NCBI GenBank assembly: GCA_021842405.1 | Contig: JAKBZR010000010.1 | Coordinates: 1-53,904 of the forward strand | Length of the DNA stretch: 53,904 bases | Source of the DNA: a bacterium | GTDB lineage: Bacteria > Armatimonadota > Chthonomonadetes > Chthonomonadales > JAMCWF01 | Direction of reading: 5' to 3' | Shown here: positions 30,352-38,816 of the stretch, piece by piece | Layout: each line of letters begins with the position of its first letter | Numbering within the stretch: the first letter of the stretch is position 1 | The notes under the pieces: model-generated | Told to the model about the DNA's origin: nothing | Database searches by the model: none | The model's input: only the letters and a program-made list of their open reading frames with translations | Program-made: the position numbers and the translations under genes

Positions 30352-31410
30352 TTACGCCGGTTTCTTCTGGGCGTCCTGCTTTTGGGTGTGCCCCGATTTG
30401 ACCTCATCCATAGTAACGGCCGGCTTGATCCAGGTCATCATCTTGCGCAGCTCTGCGCCCACCTTCTCGATCGGGTGCGCCCGCTCCTGCGCCTCGATCG
30501 CGCGAAATACCGGCCTATTCGCCTGATTCTCCAGTATCCACTCCTTCGCGAATGCGCCCGTCTGTATCTCCCGCAGCAATCCGCGCATCGTCTCCCGCAC
30601 GTGCTCGTCAATCACTCGCGGGCCGCGCGTCATATCGCCGTATTGCGCCGTGTCGGAAACCGAGTATCGCATGCCCGCAATGCCCGATTCGTAGATCAAA
30701 TCCACGATCAACTTCAGCTCATGCAGGCACTCAAAGTAGGCGATCTCGGGCTGGTATCCGGCCGCTACCAGCGTCTCAAATCCCGCCTTGACCAACGAGG
30801 TAGCGCCGCCGCACAGCACCGCCTGCTCGCCGAATAGGTCGGTCTCGGTCTCCTCTCGGAACGACGTTTCCAACACTCCGGCCCTGGTGCTGCCGATGCC
30901 CTTCGCATAGGCCAGCGCAATATCTTTCGCCCGACCGGTCGGATTTTGATGGATCGCGATCAAGCAAGGCACCCCCTGCCCCTCGGTAAAGACCCGCCTC
31001 ACCAGATGGCCGGGCGCCTTCGGCGCCACCATGAAGACATCCACATTCTCCGGTGGAACGATCTGCCCGAAGTGGATGTTGAAGCCGTGAGCAAATGCCA
31101 GCGCGCTGCCCGGCTTTAAATTCGGTTGAATGAACTCTTTATAAACCGAAGCCTGATATTCATCGTTGATGAGGATCATCGTGATATCGGATTCGTGAAC
31201 CGCCGCCCCTACCGACAGCACCCGTAGGCCGGCCCGCTCGGCCCGCTCCCACGATTTGCCGGGTCTCAGTCCGATTCGAACATCCACGCCGCTGTCCTTT
31301 AGGTTCAGAGCGTGTGCGTGCCCCTGGCTGCCGTAACCGATGATTGCGATTTTTTTCCCCGAAAGCACATCCAGATCGGCGTCGCTGTCGTAATAGATGT
31401 TAACTGGCAT
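30352..31410 (-). CDS. ilvC: Ketol-acid reductoisomerase
   Basis: [101 protein letters not shown]. Confidence 0.97.
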
Positions 31411-31447
31411 TTATATCTCCTTTGTTGATCCATTTCGTGTATTTTTT

Positions 31448-32527
31448 TCAAAATTTCATCCCACTGCAGAACTCATAGCTCTCGATGATCTCGCCCGCGT
31501 CGGCGGTACCGGTCGTGCCGAGCTTTCGGATGGTAATCGAAGCAGCCAGGTTGGCGATCGCCGCCGCCTCTTCCGGCGTCGCACCGGCGCATAACGCCGC
31601 AATCAAGCCCGCCCCCGCGCTGTCACCGGCGCCCACAATGTCAATCGGGCCGCTCACCGGAACCGCCGGCACCCGTATTGTTGAATCGCCTCCGATCACC
31701 AGCATGCCCTCCGAACCGAGCGTTAAAAAAACCCGACCTTCCACTTGCTCGGAGAGCGCTTTCCCGCACCGAGCCGCCTGCTCATCGTTATGCGCATTTG
31801 ACTTTGCGAACTTGTAACTCATTGCCTTCGCAGCTTCTTGCTGATTTGGCTTTACGTTCATATAGCGAAACTCTCCGACCCGCATACGGGAGTCGGCCAG
31901 AAATATCTTATCCGCATGCTCTTTCGCGCAACGGCTCAACTCATCGCGAATCTTATCGCTCACCGCACCGTGGTTTCGCTCTTGAACCTGATCCCCAATA
32001 ATGATACCGTCTACCATCGCCACAATCTCGCAGATCGCCTGAATAATTCGCTCTTCCACTTCTCGATTCAAAGGACACCAATTCTTCCGATCCAGCCGGT
32101 TCATTTCGGTCTCGGCGCCGTCCGCGCCGATGCGCATCGGTTTCATATAGGTCGGCGTATGAACCGCACCGATTGTAATCAACCGCTCATCGCTGACCCC
32201 CAACCGCCTCAAGCCCTGCCGAAGCTCGTATCCCTCCCCGTCATCACCACAAAAGCCAACCGCATGCACGGCGCCAACGCCCATCGCAATGAGATTGGCT
32301 GCCACCGTTCCGGCCGCGCCAGGACTGTGGCGGGTCTCCACCACCTGGTAGGCTTCCAACCCGGTCTCCAGCGAAGCCTCACTGCGGGATGGATCAATCA
32401 CCAGATACTTGTCCAGGAAAAAATCACCCACAATCGCGATTTTAACCTGGCGCATTCGGCCTAGGATTTCGTACAGTCTCTCCTCAGTGATGAGCTCTTG
32501 AATCCGCGATGTCTGTCGGACGTTCAT
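31448..32527 (-). CDS. PfkB-family carbohydrate kinase, RfaE/HldE kinase-domain-like
   Basis: VKIAIVGDFFLDKYLVIDPSRSE, SPGAAGTVAANLIAMGVGAVHAVGFCGDDGEG, PIDIVGAGDSAGAGLIAAL (PfkB signature 2). Confidence 0.88.
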   Translation of the reverse strand: MNVRQTSRIQELITEERLYEILGRMRQVKIAIVGDFFLDKYLVIDPSRSEASLETGLEAYQVVETRHSPGAAGTVAANLIAMGVGAVHAVGFCGDDGEGYELRQGLRRLGVSDERLITIGAVHTPTYMKPMRIGADGAETEMNRLDRKNWCPLNREVEERIIQAICEIVAMVDGIIIGDQVQERNHGAVSDKIRDELSRCAKEHADKIFLADSRMRVGEFRYMNVKPNQQEAAKAMSYKFAKSNAHNDEQAARCGKALSEQVEGRVFLTLGSEGMLVIGGDSTIRVPAVPVSGPIDIVGAGDSAGAGLIAALCAGATPEEAAAIANLAASITIRKLGTTGTADAGEIIESYEFCSGMKF

Positions 32528-33519
32528 CGAGTGGCGCTCGGACTTTCCGCCGTTATGTTCTCTCGCTCCAATAACAAGCGGCGCAAATGCGGAATGCTTT
32601 CCCGGTGATCGGCCCGGATGTAAAAGCTTTCGCCGCCGTCGCTGACGGTCCGCACCAAAATCGTTTTGAATGGCCGGTAGTAGTAGCGCGGATCCGATTT
32701 TGGCGCCTCTGAATGGAGATCCTCACCTAGCTCAATCAGGTCAAAAACCACCGTCGTGAAGTGGGCGATGGTCTCACCTTTACGCTGCGCTACGTTTCGC
32801 GCCATCGCGAGCGCTTTCAAATAGACCTCCGGTCCCATCACCGACGTGCCGACATTCAGCATTACGCCGCCCTCCAAGCGGCTCACCGATTCAGTGAAGA
32901 TAAGAAAGTCCTCGTAGGTCGCCTTGCCCACCGCCGCTCCGTCAAAATTTGGATGCTCATGCGTAATATCCTGACCGATTGCGATATGACAGGTGACCGG
33001 TATGCCCAGTCTCCATCCCGCCGCCAGGATGCTGATATCCACATGGGGGGGCCGGGTTTCGGACAAATAGCGTCCCATTGCCTCACCCACGCCTTCACCG
33101 CGGACGGCGCCTTCGCGAATGATGTCGTTGATCTCCCCTGTCTCACGCCATAAACCGAACTCGCCGTTGCGAATGTATCGAGCCACGCTCTCGGTGGATG
33201 CGCCGATCAGTGCGAGCTCGTAATCGTGAATGACGCCCGCCCCATTGAGCGCCACGTGCGTGAGGTAGCCTCGCTCCATCAAGTCTATCACGAAACGGCT
33301 CATCCCTACCTTGATGACATGAGCGCCCATGATCAATATCACCGCGCTCCCACTATCTTTGGCGGCTGCCATTCGCGCGGCCAGGATGGCAAGCCGCTCA
33401 TCCGGCATCTCCCCTAATTCCATATCTAACGGCAGCACATCGGCGAGGATCATGTCATGCCGACGCTCCGAAAGCGGTTTTATATGAAGCTTACTCCGAT
33501 CAAAACGGGTATAACGCAA
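32524..33519 (-). CDS. Deoxyhypusine synthase-like protein
   Basis: DHS-like Rossmann segments AVILIMGAHVIKVGMSRFVIDLMERGYLTHVALNGAGVIHDYELAL and GIPVTCHIAIGQDITHEHPNFDGAA...LEGGVMLNVGTSVMGPEVYLKALAMARN. Family assigned by eye. Confidence 0.55.
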   Translation of the reverse strand: MRYTRFDRSKLHIKPLSERRHDMILADVLPLDMELGEMPDERLAILAARMAAAKDSGSAVILIMGAHVIKVGMSRFVIDLMERGYLTHVALNGAGVIHDYELALIGASTESVARYIRNGEFGLWRETGEINDIIREGAVRGEGVGEAMGRYLSETRPPHVDISILAAGWRLGIPVTCHIAIGQDITHEHPNFDGAAVGKATYEDFLIFTESVSRLEGGVMLNVGTSVMGPEVYLKALAMARNVAQRKGETIAHFTTVVFDLIELGEDLHSEAPKSDPRYYYRPFKTILVRTVSDGGESFYIRADHRESIPHLRRLLLERENITAESPSATR

Positions 33520-33523
33520 AATG

Positions 33524-34354
33524 CTAGCCCCTCTCGTCGAATAAAAATGACAGCAGCCCCTCGGATTCCCGATAATCCGGAATGATCAGATCGGCGCCGG
33601 CTCGCTCCAAGCGCTGGCATTTCCAATCATCCCATCCCTTGCGCTCCGATTCGTTGGATGCCACCCCAATGGCCACCCCGCCCGCTTTCTTCACCTCTTC
33701 GATCTCCACGAATCCATCGCCGAACCCTAAAAGCTCCGAGCCGTCCAGCCGGTTCTCTTCCAGAATCATCCGGATGACCTGATCCTTGTCAAAATCGAGC
33801 TGCCCCTCCCGGGCGCCGTAAATTCCCTCAAAATATTCGCTGATGCCCAGCGCCGCCGCCTCGTCTTGAACCGGCAGCTCATCGGTGCCGCTGGCCAGAT
33901 AAAGCCGCACGCCCCGCTGTCGCAGTCCCTTCAGTAGGTTGATCGAGCCGGGCACCATCATATCTTCCGGCGATATACTGCCCTCGTTCAGACCTGCCAC
34001 ACGGCCCGCGATACGATCCCAGAGCAGCTTGATGTATCGGTGCTTGTACTCGATCGGATCGAGCGGGATCGCTCCCCGCTTTCTGATCTGGTCCGCCAGC
34101 TCTTTCATCTGGTAGATGGTCTGCTTGCCGGTCAGCCGGTAAACCGATTCACGAACTGAGACCGCCAGTTTGTCAACGTCTTCATTTGGGTTGACCGACC
34201 GCAGCTCTTCAACCATCATCGGGACCATCACATCCATCCATCCCTGCCGGATTAACGAGAGCGTTCCATCAAAATCAAATAGCGCGGTCTTAATTTTTCT
34301 TCGGGAAAAGCCCGGATTTATTATCTTTATAAATGAAATCGGCTGGTTGCTCAT
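33524..34354 (-). CDS. HAD-superfamily hydrolase
   Basis: IKTALFDFDGTLSLIRQGW (motif I), LYLASGTDE (motif II), LLGFGDGFVEIEEVKKAGGVAIGVASNE (motif IV). Confidence 0.92.
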   Translation of the reverse strand: MSNQPISFIKIINPGFSRRKIKTALFDFDGTLSLIRQGWMDVMVPMMVEELRSVNPNEDVDKLAVSVRESVYRLTGKQTIYQMKELADQIRKRGAIPLDPIEYKHRYIKLLWDRIAGRVAGLNEGSISPEDMMVPGSINLLKGLRQRGVRLYLASGTDELPVQDEAAALGISEYFEGIYGAREGQLDFDKDQVIRMILEENRLDGSELLGFGDGFVEIEEVKKAGGVAIGVASNESERKGWDDWKCQRLERAGADLIIPDYRESEGLLSFLFDERG

Positions 34355-34911
34355 TGGGCCAATCGCTGGCGAAGCTGGACAAAAACGATGTGGAGCACCA
34401 CCATGTGGACATCTTCGATTTGCTGCATGCTCTCACTCGAAACCACAAAACTTTTTTGCACGATTGACGCCAGCTTCCCTCCTTTATATCCGCACATTCC
34501 ATACGTGATCGCACCAATCCGGTTCGCCGCCTCAATTCCATTCAGCACGTTGGCGGAGTTGCCGCTTCCGCTAATCCCAATCACCACATCACCCGGCTCC
34601 GCCCAAGCCTCCACCTGAGGGGTAAAGATGTTGTTGTAATCGGTGTCATTCGCCCACGCCATGAGTAGAGGTGTATTATCGGACAGGCAGGCTGCCTTCA
34701 AGGCTCGCCCGCTCTCCAGCGCGATGCACTTTTGCAAATCATTCACGATGTGGGAAGCGCTCGCTGAGCTTCCGCCGTTGCCCATCAATAGAACCCGCTT
34801 GCCATCGCGCCAGCACCCCTCCAGATCATCCACCAGCGATTGGATAAACGTCTCCGGAATTTCATTGAGCAGTTTTTGTAATTGATCGAGATACTCCCTA
34901 ACGGATATCAC
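34351..34911 (-). CDS. SIS-domain phosphosugar isomerase, GmhA-like
   Basis: LLMGNGGSSASASHIVNDLQKCIA, NDTDYNNIFTPQVEAWAEPGDVVIGISGSGNSANVLNGIEAANRIGA. Confidence 0.88.
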   Translation of the reverse strand: MISVREYLDQLQKLLNEIPETFIQSLVDDLEGCWRDGKRVLLMGNGGSSASASHIVNDLQKCIALESGRALKAACLSDNTPLLMAWANDTDYNNIFTPQVEAWAEPGDVVIGISGSGNSANVLNGIEAANRIGAITYGMCGYKGGKLASIVQKSFVVSSESMQQIEDVHMVVLHIVFVQLRQRLAQ

Positions 34912-34931
34912 TTTTCCTCCTTTTGAATACG

Positions 34932-35210
34932 TGCATGTTATTACTTGGCAATGTTATAGCGTAATTCTCCTAACCTCACCGCTTCTGCCTGTCGGCGCCG
35001 CCCACAACGCACCAATCCCCTAAACCCTAAACCTAAACCCTAAAGGTTTTTAAAACCTTTAGGGTTTCACCCCAATGTACGTGGGGGAGGCCCCGCCGAA
35101 CTGACCTTCCTCGTAATTAAAACCTGCACCCCTAGCTCCTGCCGGTTGACTTCACTGCAGGGCCGGTATAAGCAGAGCTTATGCGTTATTATATTGCCGA
35201 ATTAATATAA
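34932..35210. repeat. Candidate second MITE-like element bounded by imperfect inverted repeats
   Basis: Left TATTACTTGGCAATGTTATAGCGTAA; right end, reverse-complemented, TATTAATTCGGCAATATAATAACGCATAA. Related termini occur alone at ~12869 (ATTACTTCGGCAATGTTATAGCGCAA) and ~2226 (TTATTCGGCAATGTCATAACGCTAA). Confidence 0.45.
35035..35067. repeat. Perfect 33-bp palindrome AAACCCTAAAGGTTTT-T-AAAACCTTTAGGGTTT
   Basis: 16-bp arms, 1-nt centre; preceded by CCCTAAA-type short repeats (cccctaaaccctaaacctaaaccctaaagg). Confidence 0.85.
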
Positions 35211-35220
35211 TGGAACCGAT

Positions 35221-35988
35221 CTATTCATACGGCCGGCTGCCCGCAAAAATGGCAAGCTCGAAAAACTTCCAAAAACAGTCCACATCCACAAAGCCGATCT
35301 CGCGCAGCCACTGCATCTGCCGCTCCAGCGGAATCAACCGGTTTGCCGCCTTGTCGGGCCGCCCGCTGAGCTCATCATAAACTTCGCTAAAATCGGCCGA
35401 CTGGCCCTTTTCCTGCCGGAATGCCGCCAACCGAGCTGCATAAGCCCTCTCAAACAGCTCCTCACCTCGCGAAGAGAGGCTGGCCACGTGCTCCGCATGA
35501 ATAAATATTCCGCCCGGCTTTAAAATATCAAAAACCGCTTCATAGATGCGCCGCTTCGCCGTATCGTCTAAATGGTGAACCGCATAACCGGAGACGATGA
35601 CATGGTAGGACTGCTTATGCAGAATCTGGAGCCAATCCGGTTGTGATAGATCCGTCTCGATGAATTGAACCCTCTCCTGGTACTGTGCCAATTGCTGCCG
35701 AGCAACCTTCAGCATCGCAGGTGAACCATCCACTCCAACTCCGATGGCGTTGGGATAGGCCCCCAGCACCAACTCCAGCAGGCGCCCGCCGCCGCACCCA
35801 AGATCGGCCACACTGATTGGCTTTTCAACCGGGTAAGGGATTAATCTCAGCATCACTTCATCCTGAGTGTGCACCTCCGGCAGCGCCGCGCTTCTTTCTT
35901 CGGTATAACGTTGGGCAACCGCCGAATGCTGCCAGACTCGCCAGCTTCGATCAATTGTTTCGTGGCTACTGTTTGCTTTCATACCCAT
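35221..35988 (-). CDS. Class I SAM-dependent methyltransferase
   Basis: ISVADLGCGGGRLLELVLGAYPNAIGVGVDGSPAMLKVARQQL, YHVIVSGYAVHHLDDTAKRRIYEAVFDILKPGGIFIHAEHV. Confidence 0.92.
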   Translation of the reverse strand: MGMKANSSHETIDRSWRVWQHSAVAQRYTEERSAALPEVHTQDEVMLRLIPYPVEKPISVADLGCGGGRLLELVLGAYPNAIGVGVDGSPAMLKVARQQLAQYQERVQFIETDLSQPDWLQILHKQSYHVIVSGYAVHHLDDTAKRRIYEAVFDILKPGGIFIHAEHVASLSSRGEELFERAYAARLAAFRQEKGQSADFSEVYDELSGRPDKAANRLIPLERQMQWLREIGFVDVDCFWKFFELAIFAGSRPYE

Positions 35989-35989
35989 T

Positions 35990-36340
35990 CTATTTCACCC
36001 GGCTCTTCGATTGGCTCGTTAATTTCCGCCCGATCATGCCGCCGATCACCCCACCCAACAATCCAATCCCAACGAAAACGAGCAAGTTTACGATCAGGTT
36101 ACGAACGGTATCCATGCCCATTCGGTTGGTGATCCCGTTATAAAACTGCCAGAGCAGCCAGTTCAGCGGACCGATAGAACCGATCAATAGCCCAATACCG
36201 GCATAAAAACGAATCCGCTTTCGCGCCGCCCCAATTCCAGCACCGATCAGCAACCCGGTCAGTGGCAACAGCCAAACCAGCAACACGAAAAGGTGGTTGA
36301 TGGCGTGCATACTGATCAGTTCACGGGTTGGATTGGTCAT
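35990..36340 (-). CDS. Hypothetical membrane protein
   Basis: 116 aa with Gly-rich TM segments (LLPLTGLLIGAGIGAARKR; LLVFVGIGLLGGVIGGMIGRKL). Confidence 0.6.
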   Translation of the reverse strand: MTNPTRELISMHAINHLFVLLVWLLPLTGLLIGAGIGAARKRIRFYAGIGLLIGSIGPLNWLLWQFYNGITNRMGMDTVRNLIVNLLVFVGIGLLGGVIGGMIGRKLTSQSKSRVK

Positions 36341-36389
36341 TATCGTTCATAGGTAGATGCAGTAGATAACCTGCATCTACCCCACCGCC

Positions 36390-36917
36390 TCAAGCGGTCC
36401 GCGGGCCGCGCGCCATCGCGATAATGCCGGTACGAACCAGCTCCTTGATGCCGTATGCGCCCAGCAGCTCAGCCACTTTATCCAGTTTTTCAGAGCCCCC
36501 GGTCACCTCGATGATAAATGTTTTGTCGCTCATGTCAATGATCCGGCCCCGAAATATCTCGACGATCTGCATGATCTCATTTCGATGCCGTGGCTCGGCC
36601 CCCACCTTGATTAACGCCAACTCCCGATCAACCGCCGGCTGCTCGGTATAGTCCACCACTTTGATCACCTCGATCAGCTTATGCAACTGCTTGGTGATCT
36701 GCTCCAATACCAGGTGATCGCCCCCGACCACAATCGTCATCCGTGAAATATCCGGATTCTCGGTCACCGAAACCGCCAGCGATTCGATGTTGTAGCCGCG
36801 ACGGGCAAAGAGGCCGGATACCCTGGCGAGGACGCCGGGATGATTTTCCACCAACGCTGTAATGGTATGTCTTTGCTGCAACTGTGCGAGCATTGCCGTG
36901 CTGATGTTCGTCGCCAA
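36390..36917 (-). CDS. ilvN: Acetolactate synthase small (regulatory) subunit
   Basis: HTITALVENHPGVLARVSGLFARRGYNIESLAVSVTENPDISRMTIVVGGD, ACT domain; directly downstream of ilvB. Confidence 0.96.
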   Translation of the reverse strand: MATNISTAMLAQLQQRHTITALVENHPGVLARVSGLFARRGYNIESLAVSVTENPDISRMTIVVGGDHLVLEQITKQLHKLIEVIKVVDYTEQPAVDRELALIKVGAEPRHRNEIMQIVEIFRGRIIDMSDKTFIIEVTGGSEKLDKVAELLGAYGIKELVRTGIIAMARGPRTA

Positions 36918-36931
36918 TCCCGCTCCCTCCT

Positions 36932-38722
36932 TTACTGATTCTTCTCCACCGTCTCAACGTACTGCTCCAACACTCGCTCCTCATCAGCGAAGGACCAGAC
37001 TTCGCTGTCGGTATGAACCTTTGCTTTCAACTGCTCCAGGTCTTTCCGAATCATCATCTGCTCCACCGTTTGACCGGATGGGATGAACGGGTAGACGTTT
37101 TCCTCGGTTGGAATCACGCAATCAATGACGGTGGGACGATCCCGAACCGCCAGCGCTCTCTCCAATACCGAAACCACCTCTCCCGGTTGGGCGACCCTCA
37201 TTCCAACCGCGCCATACGCCTCCGCCAGTCTTACGTAGTCCGGAGACGCCTCCAAATTGGTATGGCTGTACCGTTGAGAGTAGAACATATGCTGCCATTG
37301 CCGCACCATCCCCAGTGACCGGTTGTTGATGATCGCCACGATGATCGGTAGGCCATAAACGGATGCCGTCATCAGCTCTTGTGTGCACATCTGGAATGAG
37401 CCATCGCCCGATAGGCATACCACCGTCTCATCAGGGAATGCCTTCTGCACCCCGATCGCGGCCGGCATCCCATAGCCCATCGTTCCCAATCCACCGGATG
37501 TAATAAATTGGCGGGTTCGCCGGGTTTTATAATACTGGGCCGCCCACATCTGATGCTGCCCCACATCAGTGGTCATAATCGCCTTCCAGTCGGTCGCCTC
37601 ACCGATCTTCTCGATGATGTACTCGGCATACAGCTTGCCATCATCCGGATAGAGGAGAGGAAACAGCCGCTTCCACTCCATAATTTGATCGTTCCAGGAG
37701 CTCCACGGTCGTGGCTTTACATGTTTCAACAGGTCTTGCAACACCAGCTTCACATCGCCCACGATGGGTATATCCGGCTGAACCACCTTGCCGATCTCCG
37801 CCGGATCAATGTCAATGTGAATGATCTTCGCGTTTGGCGCGAAGCGATCCACCTTGCCGGTTACCCGATCATCGAACCGCGCGCCCACTGCAATCAACAG
37901 ATCGCAGTTGTTCACCGCATGGTTGGCGTAGGCGGTGCCATGCATTCCCAACATGCCGATTGAGTTCCGATGCGTTTCGTCAATGGAGCCCTTGCCCAAC
38001 AGCGTAGTGGTGGTCAGGATATTGGTTCGCTCCGATAGCTCCGTCAACTCCATCTGCGCCCCGGCCGCCACACAGCCGCCGCCCACGTAAAGCACCGGTC
38101 GCTGCGCCTCCGCAATCGCCTGAGCCGCCTTTTTGATCTGCAGCTCATGACCGCGTGTGTTCGGCCGGTAGCTCGGAATATCCACGTTCTGCGTGTAGCT
38201 CTCCGGATCCCATTCGATCTGATCAATGCTCACATCCAGCGGCAGATCAATCACCACCGGGCCCGGGCGGCCGGTTCGGGCGATATAGAACGCCTCCGCG
38301 ATGACCCGCGGAAGATCAGCCGTGCGCTTCACCAGGAAATTATGCTTGGTCACCGGCAGCGTTACCCCGGTGGCGTCCACCTCTTGAAAGGCATCTTTCC
38401 CAATGACCGAGGTTCGCACCTGGCCGGTGATCGCCACCATTGGAATTGAATCCATGTAAGCGGTTGCAATCCCGGTCACCATATTGGTTGCGCCCGGTCC
38501 GCTGGTTGAAAGGCATACACCAACCTTGCCGGTTGCGCGGGCATAGCCATCCGCCATATGCGCCGCCCCTTGCTCATGGCGTACGAGAACGTGCTCGATT
38601 TCGGTGCAATCGTAAAGCGCGTCGTAGATAGGAAGGACGGCTCCTCCCGGGTACCCGAAGACGTGCTGCACGCCTTCTCGACGCAAACATTCGAGCAAAA
38701 TTTTCGCTCCCGACATTTTCAT
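36932..38722 (-). CDS. ilvB: Acetolactate synthase large subunit
   Basis: MKMSGAKILLECLRREGVQHVFGYPGGAVLPIYDAL, VLVRHEQGAAHMADGYARATGKVGVC, TPP motif VVCLSGDGSFQMCTQELMTASVYGLPIIVAIINNRSLGMVRQWQ. The ORF track extends 21 codons further upstream. Confidence 0.96.
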   Translation of the reverse strand: MKMSGAKILLECLRREGVQHVFGYPGGAVLPIYDALYDCTEIEHVLVRHEQGAAHMADGYARATGKVGVCLSTSGPGATNMVTGIATAYMDSIPMVAITGQVRTSVIGKDAFQEVDATGVTLPVTKHNFLVKRTADLPRVIAEAFYIARTGRPGPVVIDLPLDVSIDQIEWDPESYTQNVDIPSYRPNTRGHELQIKKAAQAIAEAQRPVLYVGGGCVAAGAQMELTELSERTNILTTTTLLGKGSIDETHRNSIGMLGMHGTAYANHAVNNCDLLIAVGARFDDRVTGKVDRFAPNAKIIHIDIDPAEIGKVVQPDIPIVGDVKLVLQDLLKHVKPRPWSSWNDQIMEWKRLFPLLYPDDGKLYAEYIIEKIGEATDWKAIMTTDVGQHQMWAAQYYKTRRTRQFITSGGLGTMGYGMPAAIGVQKAFPDETVVCLSGDGSFQMCTQELMTASVYGLPIIVAIINNRSLGMVRQWQHMFYSQRYSHTNLEASPDYVRLAEAYGAVGMRVAQPGEVVSVLERALAVRDRPTVIDCVIPTEENVYPFIPSGQTVEQMMIRKDLEQLKAKVHTDSEVWSFADEERVLEQYVETVEKNQ

Positions 38723-38816
38723 GGCTGGGTGTCTCCTAACTGTCTGTAATAGACGATCATTGCTTGGCGAATATCCGGGTGGCATCCAATTCCATAACCC
38801 CGGATACTCACGAAAC

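Follow-up and report, generated by a model that had tools for sequence, protein, structure and literature searches.

The window analysed here is a stretch of 53,904 nucleotides from a genome of the Armatimonadota. Within it, four consecutive minus-strand genes form a compact cassette, which lies next to genes of the ilv group. The features of the locus are as follows.

34912-35220, upstream of the SIS gene: cassette leader of 309 bp, with a palindrome and repeats
34351-34911, minus strand: SIS-domain sugar-phosphate isomerase, GmhA-like, with a GTG start
33524-34354, minus strand: HAD hydrolase of the HAD_2 type (PF00702/PF13419), presumed sugar-bisphosphate phosphatase
32524-33519, minus strand: GSU2086-family protein (NF052581), type i, presumed hydride-shuttling sugar epimerase, with a TTG start
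31448-32527, minus strand: PfkB sugar kinase of a divergent HldA/RfaE type (PF00294)
30352-31410, minus strand as for the cassette: ilvC, given for context and outside the pathway

All four cassette open reading frames are real genes, each with a family match (Pfam, NCBIfam). The SIS and HAD genes overlap by 4 nt (ATGA), a 4-nt gap separates the HAD and GSU2086 genes, with a GAGAGGGG stretch preceding the GSU2086 start, and the GSU2086 and PfkB genes again overlap by 4 nt (ATGA), exactly as the initial annotation had described. The cassette is flanked by ilvBN and ilvC, the latter beginning 37 bp downstream with a Shine-Dalgarno sequence of its own. Between ilvBN and ilvC (30352-38785), a methyltransferase gene (35221-35988) and one for a small membrane-like protein accompany the cassette. 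No ilv neighbours were found at any other GSU2086 locus examined, so this setting is local to the window and was rejected as a conserved feature. Four telomere-like CCCTAAA repeats (35018-35044) are present along with the palindrome in the leader.

The isomerase, kinase and phosphatase encoded here belong to the same classes as those of the ADP-heptose pathway, although the isomerase and kinase are divergent and the phosphatase is of another HAD class. The SIS protein matches SIS_2 and scores 111 bits against the GmhA equivalog model TIGR00441, under the cut-off of 209.45. Its best PDB relatives are phosphoheptose isomerases, with DiaA also matched, and its GNGGS, SGxS and C-terminal (E/D)xH motifs align with the PDB matches. 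The PfkB protein scores 98.7 bits against PF00294 and keeps a GAGDSAGAG motif; against the HldA equivalog TIGR02198 it reaches 147 bits, under the cut-off of 345, and its PDB matches include the heptose-7-P kinase 4e84. In the HAD protein, DFDGT and GDGxxE motifs are present, and comparison with the GmhB families of NCBIfam gave no match, the protein being of the HAD_2 rather than the GmhB type. Cassette-type PfkB and HAD domains are fused at two other loci, once beside a GSU2086 gene of the insertion type described below (L146, 2086-3987) and once within a GmhA-HldD-HldC operon, where the fusion supplies both kinase and phosphatase (L212, 5887-7821). Through the latter arrangement, both of these cassette-type enzyme classes, PfkB and HAD, are tied to the heptose route.

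Further heptose genes are located elsewhere in the same genome. HldC is encoded on contig C44 (TIGR02199, 192.5 bits, above cut-off), unlinked to the cassette and with a second, canonical-type HldA as a close neighbour; a GmhB-like gene is found on contig C99 and two GT9 genes on contig C168. The nucleotidyltransferase that had been called absent is thus missing from the cassette but not from the genome. A further difference from the ADP-heptose pathway is the lack of a recognisable HldD: a search of the window genome for HldD (TIGR02197) returned no match at E up to 1e-40, and GSU2086 is found in its place. The 300-bp spacer between hldA and hldC on C44 was searched for a remnant of GSU2086, with no significant match. 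The initial annotation had weighed its proposal against an independent, complete heptose cluster elsewhere in the genome; such a cluster is only half present, with HldA and HldC outside the cassette, because the sole GmhA-like isomerase match of the genome is the cassette SIS protein. The simplest account is a single heptose route whose genes are scattered over several loci, or a pair of related routes with GmhA in common.

The third gene had been described as deoxyhypusine synthase (DHS)-like. Its product is a member of the GSU2086 family (NF052581; 381.2 bits against a cut-off of 250, residues 6-313), an already catalogued but little-studied family of unknown function. The HMM check against PF01916, the DHS family, that had been proposed gave no match, either in a Pfam scan of the cassette proteins or anywhere in the genome at E values up to 1e-3 (the control was positive in 7 of 14 genomes). 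An AlphaFold model built with 46 relatives (pLDDT 94.1, pTM 0.92) was compared with known structures using Foldseek. The top matches, all at TM about 0.5, were ArgZ (6juy), AgrE (6lrh/6lrg) and LOR/SDH (3c2q), with DHS next (Pyrococcus horikoshii enzyme, E 5.7e-8, TM about 0.5). The likeness to DHS therefore holds at the level of fold but not of family, and on the model GSU2086 is predicted to have the NAD-type Rossmann fold of the group formed by the ArgZ/AgrE ornithine cyclodeaminase (OCD) domain, LOR/SDH and DHS. Profile comparisons against PDB and against TIGR00300 are in agreement across the first half of the Rossmann fold, where the HDxE...GxS/T motif of ArgZ/AgrE and LOR/SDH (TIGR00300, PF21570) aligns. 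However, identity to these proteins is ~15%, GSU2086 lacks an arginine or ornithine gene context, and its score against TIGR00300 is 18.8 bits over a single 96-residue stretch (cut-off 410.8). NAD-bound structures among the fold relatives are those of AgrE-OCD (6lrg, a ternary complex with NAD+) and DHS. Many polar residues are invariant (H67, H98, D99, N131, H178, D184, H187, K235, D260, R282 and H305) and look catalytic; the lysine, K235, may or may not correspond to the catalytic lysine of DHS. Literature searches found no work on DHS with heptose or on nickel-pincer with ornithine cyclodeaminase.

In Geobacter, GSU2086 is reported to lie between hldE and gmhA in an operon for sugar biosynthesis and to be a hypothetical cytoplasmic protein, and all three genes of this set (GSU2085-2087, hldE-hypothetical-gmhA) are listed as affecting electrode growth (PMC5585712); no other papers naming GSU2086 were found. 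Heptose-type kinase and isomerase genes are neighbours of the family member in both GSU2085-GSU2087 and the window, but the Geobacter triplet has a bifunctional HldE and lacks a HAD gene, whereas the window has a HAD gene, a separate PfkB and an unlinked HldC.

Conservation of the cassette was assessed by scanning bacterial and archaeal genomes for GSU2086, which gave at least 80 named loci. Among the matches listed, 65 cross-phylum loci have 1 kb or more on each side, and in 37 of these GSU2086 directly follows HAD and directly precedes PfkB. This order recurs far above chance and is seen in Armatimonadota, Chloroflexota, Acidobacteriota, Planctomycetota, Aminicenantes, Bacillota and others. 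Of the four-gene order predicted to be conserved, the HAD-GSU2086-PfkB part thus holds in several phyla, but a SIS gene directly upstream is rare (L013 and L080 among the matches listed). In Acidobacteria the SIS gene comes after the cassette, often behind a ROK kinase, and a ROK kinase is near the cassettes of both Acidobacteria and Chloroflexi. At one Chloroflexi locus (L036), the cassette has SIS, ROK and what by eye are likely genes for ABC permeases close by, a hint of sugar salvage.

A tree of 127 GSU2086 proteins contains three clades, namely type i, its sister type ii, and a divergent clade whose members have an insertion. Type i, which includes the window protein, has the HAD/PfkB context, and the insertion type is sometimes also found beside HAD and PfkB. 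In the type-ii crown, HldA and/or HldC is adjacent in 34 of 42 rows (Armatimonadota), and KdsB, KdsA, GT9 heptosyltransferases or UbiA are often neighbours; these type-ii loci are LPS inner-core operons. Three genomes of the same phylum encode GSU2086-HldC fusions in a single open reading frame (L121, 431-2080; L122, 2002-3678; L123, 2111-3655), with both domains exceeding curated cut-offs. At deltaproteobacterial, Nitrospinaceae and archaeal loci, type-i proteins are also accompanied by GmhA, HldC and an HldC/PfkB fusion, lying inside GmhA + HldE/HldC operons in L103, L107 and L109 and with HldC in L104; the archaeal locus, L107, additionally has a transaldolase and GmhB. GSU2086 is unlikely to be a replacement for GmhA, since a SIS gene adjoins it in L107, L128, L163 and L166, or for GmhB, whose gene is beside it in L107. 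Many genomes carry a type-i cassette together with a type-ii copy, the latter often within an HldA/HldC operon (e.g. G005 and G232); in these, type i therefore does not simply stand in for a missing HldD. Some type-i genomes are without an HldC match (e.g. G264-G269). A GSU2086 subclade in two genomes (L016 and L018, from G186 and G182) has as neighbours a gene resembling sugar isomerases and an SbcD/SbcC-like pair, and lies apart from heptose genes; the neighbours were named by eye from sequence rather than by HMM.

HldD carries out an NAD+-dependent, redox-neutral epimerisation at C6 (PMC10948575). We observed that GSU2086 and HldD are almost mutually exclusive in Armatimonadota: across 291 genomes, 120 have GSU2086 only, 25 have HldD only and a single one has both. 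HldD was counted above cut-off (26 genomes), and the 121 genomes with GSU2086 include three with fragmented matches below cut-off; the presence sets were hand-transcribed from result tables, and the HldD, HldC and LarC totals agree with the tallies. The avoidance gives a Fisher p of 8e-6 by genome, a value inflated by lineage structure, and of 0.003 by family, with two families having both. Decay of GSU2086 in the one genome with both, a MAG (G240), was rejected, since the break falls at a run of N and is an assembly gap, not evidence. Where GSU2086 is absent, HldD holds the equivalent operon places beside HldE, HldA or HldC. Approximately 100 HldC-positive genomes have neither protein at the thresholds used; the epimerase may be dispensable in these, or divergent ones may have been missed.

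We propose, with a probability of about 0.5, that the four genes form a module in which GSU2086 is the epimerase and which supplies cell-surface glycans with a heptose in activated form (or a heptose phosphate). The SIS protein would convert sedoheptulose-7-phosphate to aldoheptose-7-phosphate (the GmhA role), PfkB would phosphorylate C1 (the HldA role), the HAD protein would remove the 7-phosphate (the GmhB role), and HldC from contig C44 could provide nucleotidyl transfer. GSU2086, as an NAD(H)-type enzyme, would take a hydride off a sugar carbon and return it to the opposite face. This epimerisation would be redox-neutral like that of HldD, on an unrelated fold, and could amount to HldD's job or to an analogous one on a related heptose. 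AgrE and DHS shuttle a hydride internally with zero net redox change. Since both have been solved with NAD bound, and HldD is likewise redox-neutral with NAD+, an epimerase on the DHS/OCD fold would be chemically natural. All substrates are inferred, as are the direction in which each step runs, the cofactor and the activity as an epimerase. Membership of the pathway is well supported by the genes present, the conservation of their order, the fold, the fusions, the operon surroundings and the near exclusion of HldD.

A wider proposal is made tentatively, namely that GSU2086 replaces HldD without being its orthologue, using the DHS/OCD fold to epimerise a nucleotide-heptose or a heptose phosphate. 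This replacement would be widespread, occurring in Armatimonadota, Acidobacteriota, Planctomycetota and Chloroflexota as well as in Geobacter, and the window cassette would be a second, paralogous branch making a different heptose. The main uncertainty concerns the substrate of the window protein. Because types i and ii coexist in many genomes and some type-i genomes are without HldC, that substrate may be another heptose or a different sugar phosphate.

The same observations would also suit a cassette that handles another sugar phosphate (a hexose, pentose or uncommon ketose), either in salvage or for some other glycan, with GSU2086 as its dehydrogenase or epimerase and only type ii engaged in heptose synthesis. 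Consistent with this are the ROK kinases near the cassettes of Acidobacteria and Chloroflexi and the L036 permeases, which could mean sugar salvage, and the scores of SIS and PfkB, well under the GmhA and HldA equivalog cut-offs. Nevertheless, we consider it rather unlikely, given that type-i GSU2086 is itself in GmhA + HldE/HldC operons, that a cassette-type PfkB-HAD fusion is within the L212 heptose operon, and that the cassette supplies the only GmhA-like gene of a genome in which the remaining heptose set is otherwise present. It is improbable that GSU2086 acts in the heptose pathway as something other than an epimerase, either channelling or regulating HldA/HldC or catalysing another hydride-linked step: HldC fusion and HldA adjacency would also suit a partner protein, but the many invariant polar residues of catalytic appearance and the near exclusion of HldD argue against this.

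The cofactor could also be the nickel-pincer nucleotide (NPN) rather than NAD. NCBIfam names the distant relative TIGR00300 NPN-dependent, the NPN gene larC is present in the window genome and in 108 of the 121 GSU2086 genomes, and several f35 genomes have larC without LarA and without a strong TIGR00300 match. However, larC is absent from 13 GSU2086 genomes, several of them >95% complete, its association with GSU2086 is driven largely by one family (f15) that is without both, TIGR00300 is present in f15 genomes without larC, and AgrE was solved with NAD+ (6lrg). The link to LarC was therefore set aside as a correlation arising mostly through one family, and an NPN-dependent GSU2086 is judged very improbable. 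In f15 (e.g. G079, G134, G135), TIGR00300 proteins are present in complete genomes devoid of larC, and some genomes of this family have LarA-type proteins without larC. Hardly credible is a DHS-type reaction, as had been suggested, in which GSU2086 takes an aminoalkyl group from a polyamine and places it on a sugar phosphate or a glycan: DHS shares the overall fold (TM about 0.5), but PF01916 is unmatched, sequence and fold are nearer ArgZ/AgrE and LOR/SDH, no polyamine gene was recognised among the neighbours, there is no eIF5A context, the genomic linkage is with heptose genes, and nothing points to such transfer.

The original proposal was upheld in part, namely for a coupled, little-described SIS-HAD-X-PfkB cassette that is linked to heptose chemistry and whose X is related in fold to DHS. 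The cassette is real, conserved and little studied, and on our best reading it is a variant nucleotide-heptose module in which GSU2086 is the interesting part. If this is true, a large uncharacterised family would gain a function, and the Geobacter electrode-growth gene would become directly testable. It would also extend to sugar epimerisation a fold that is known from ornithine cyclodeamination and from deoxyhypusine synthesis, and would explain how many LPS- or glycan-making lineages cope without HldD.
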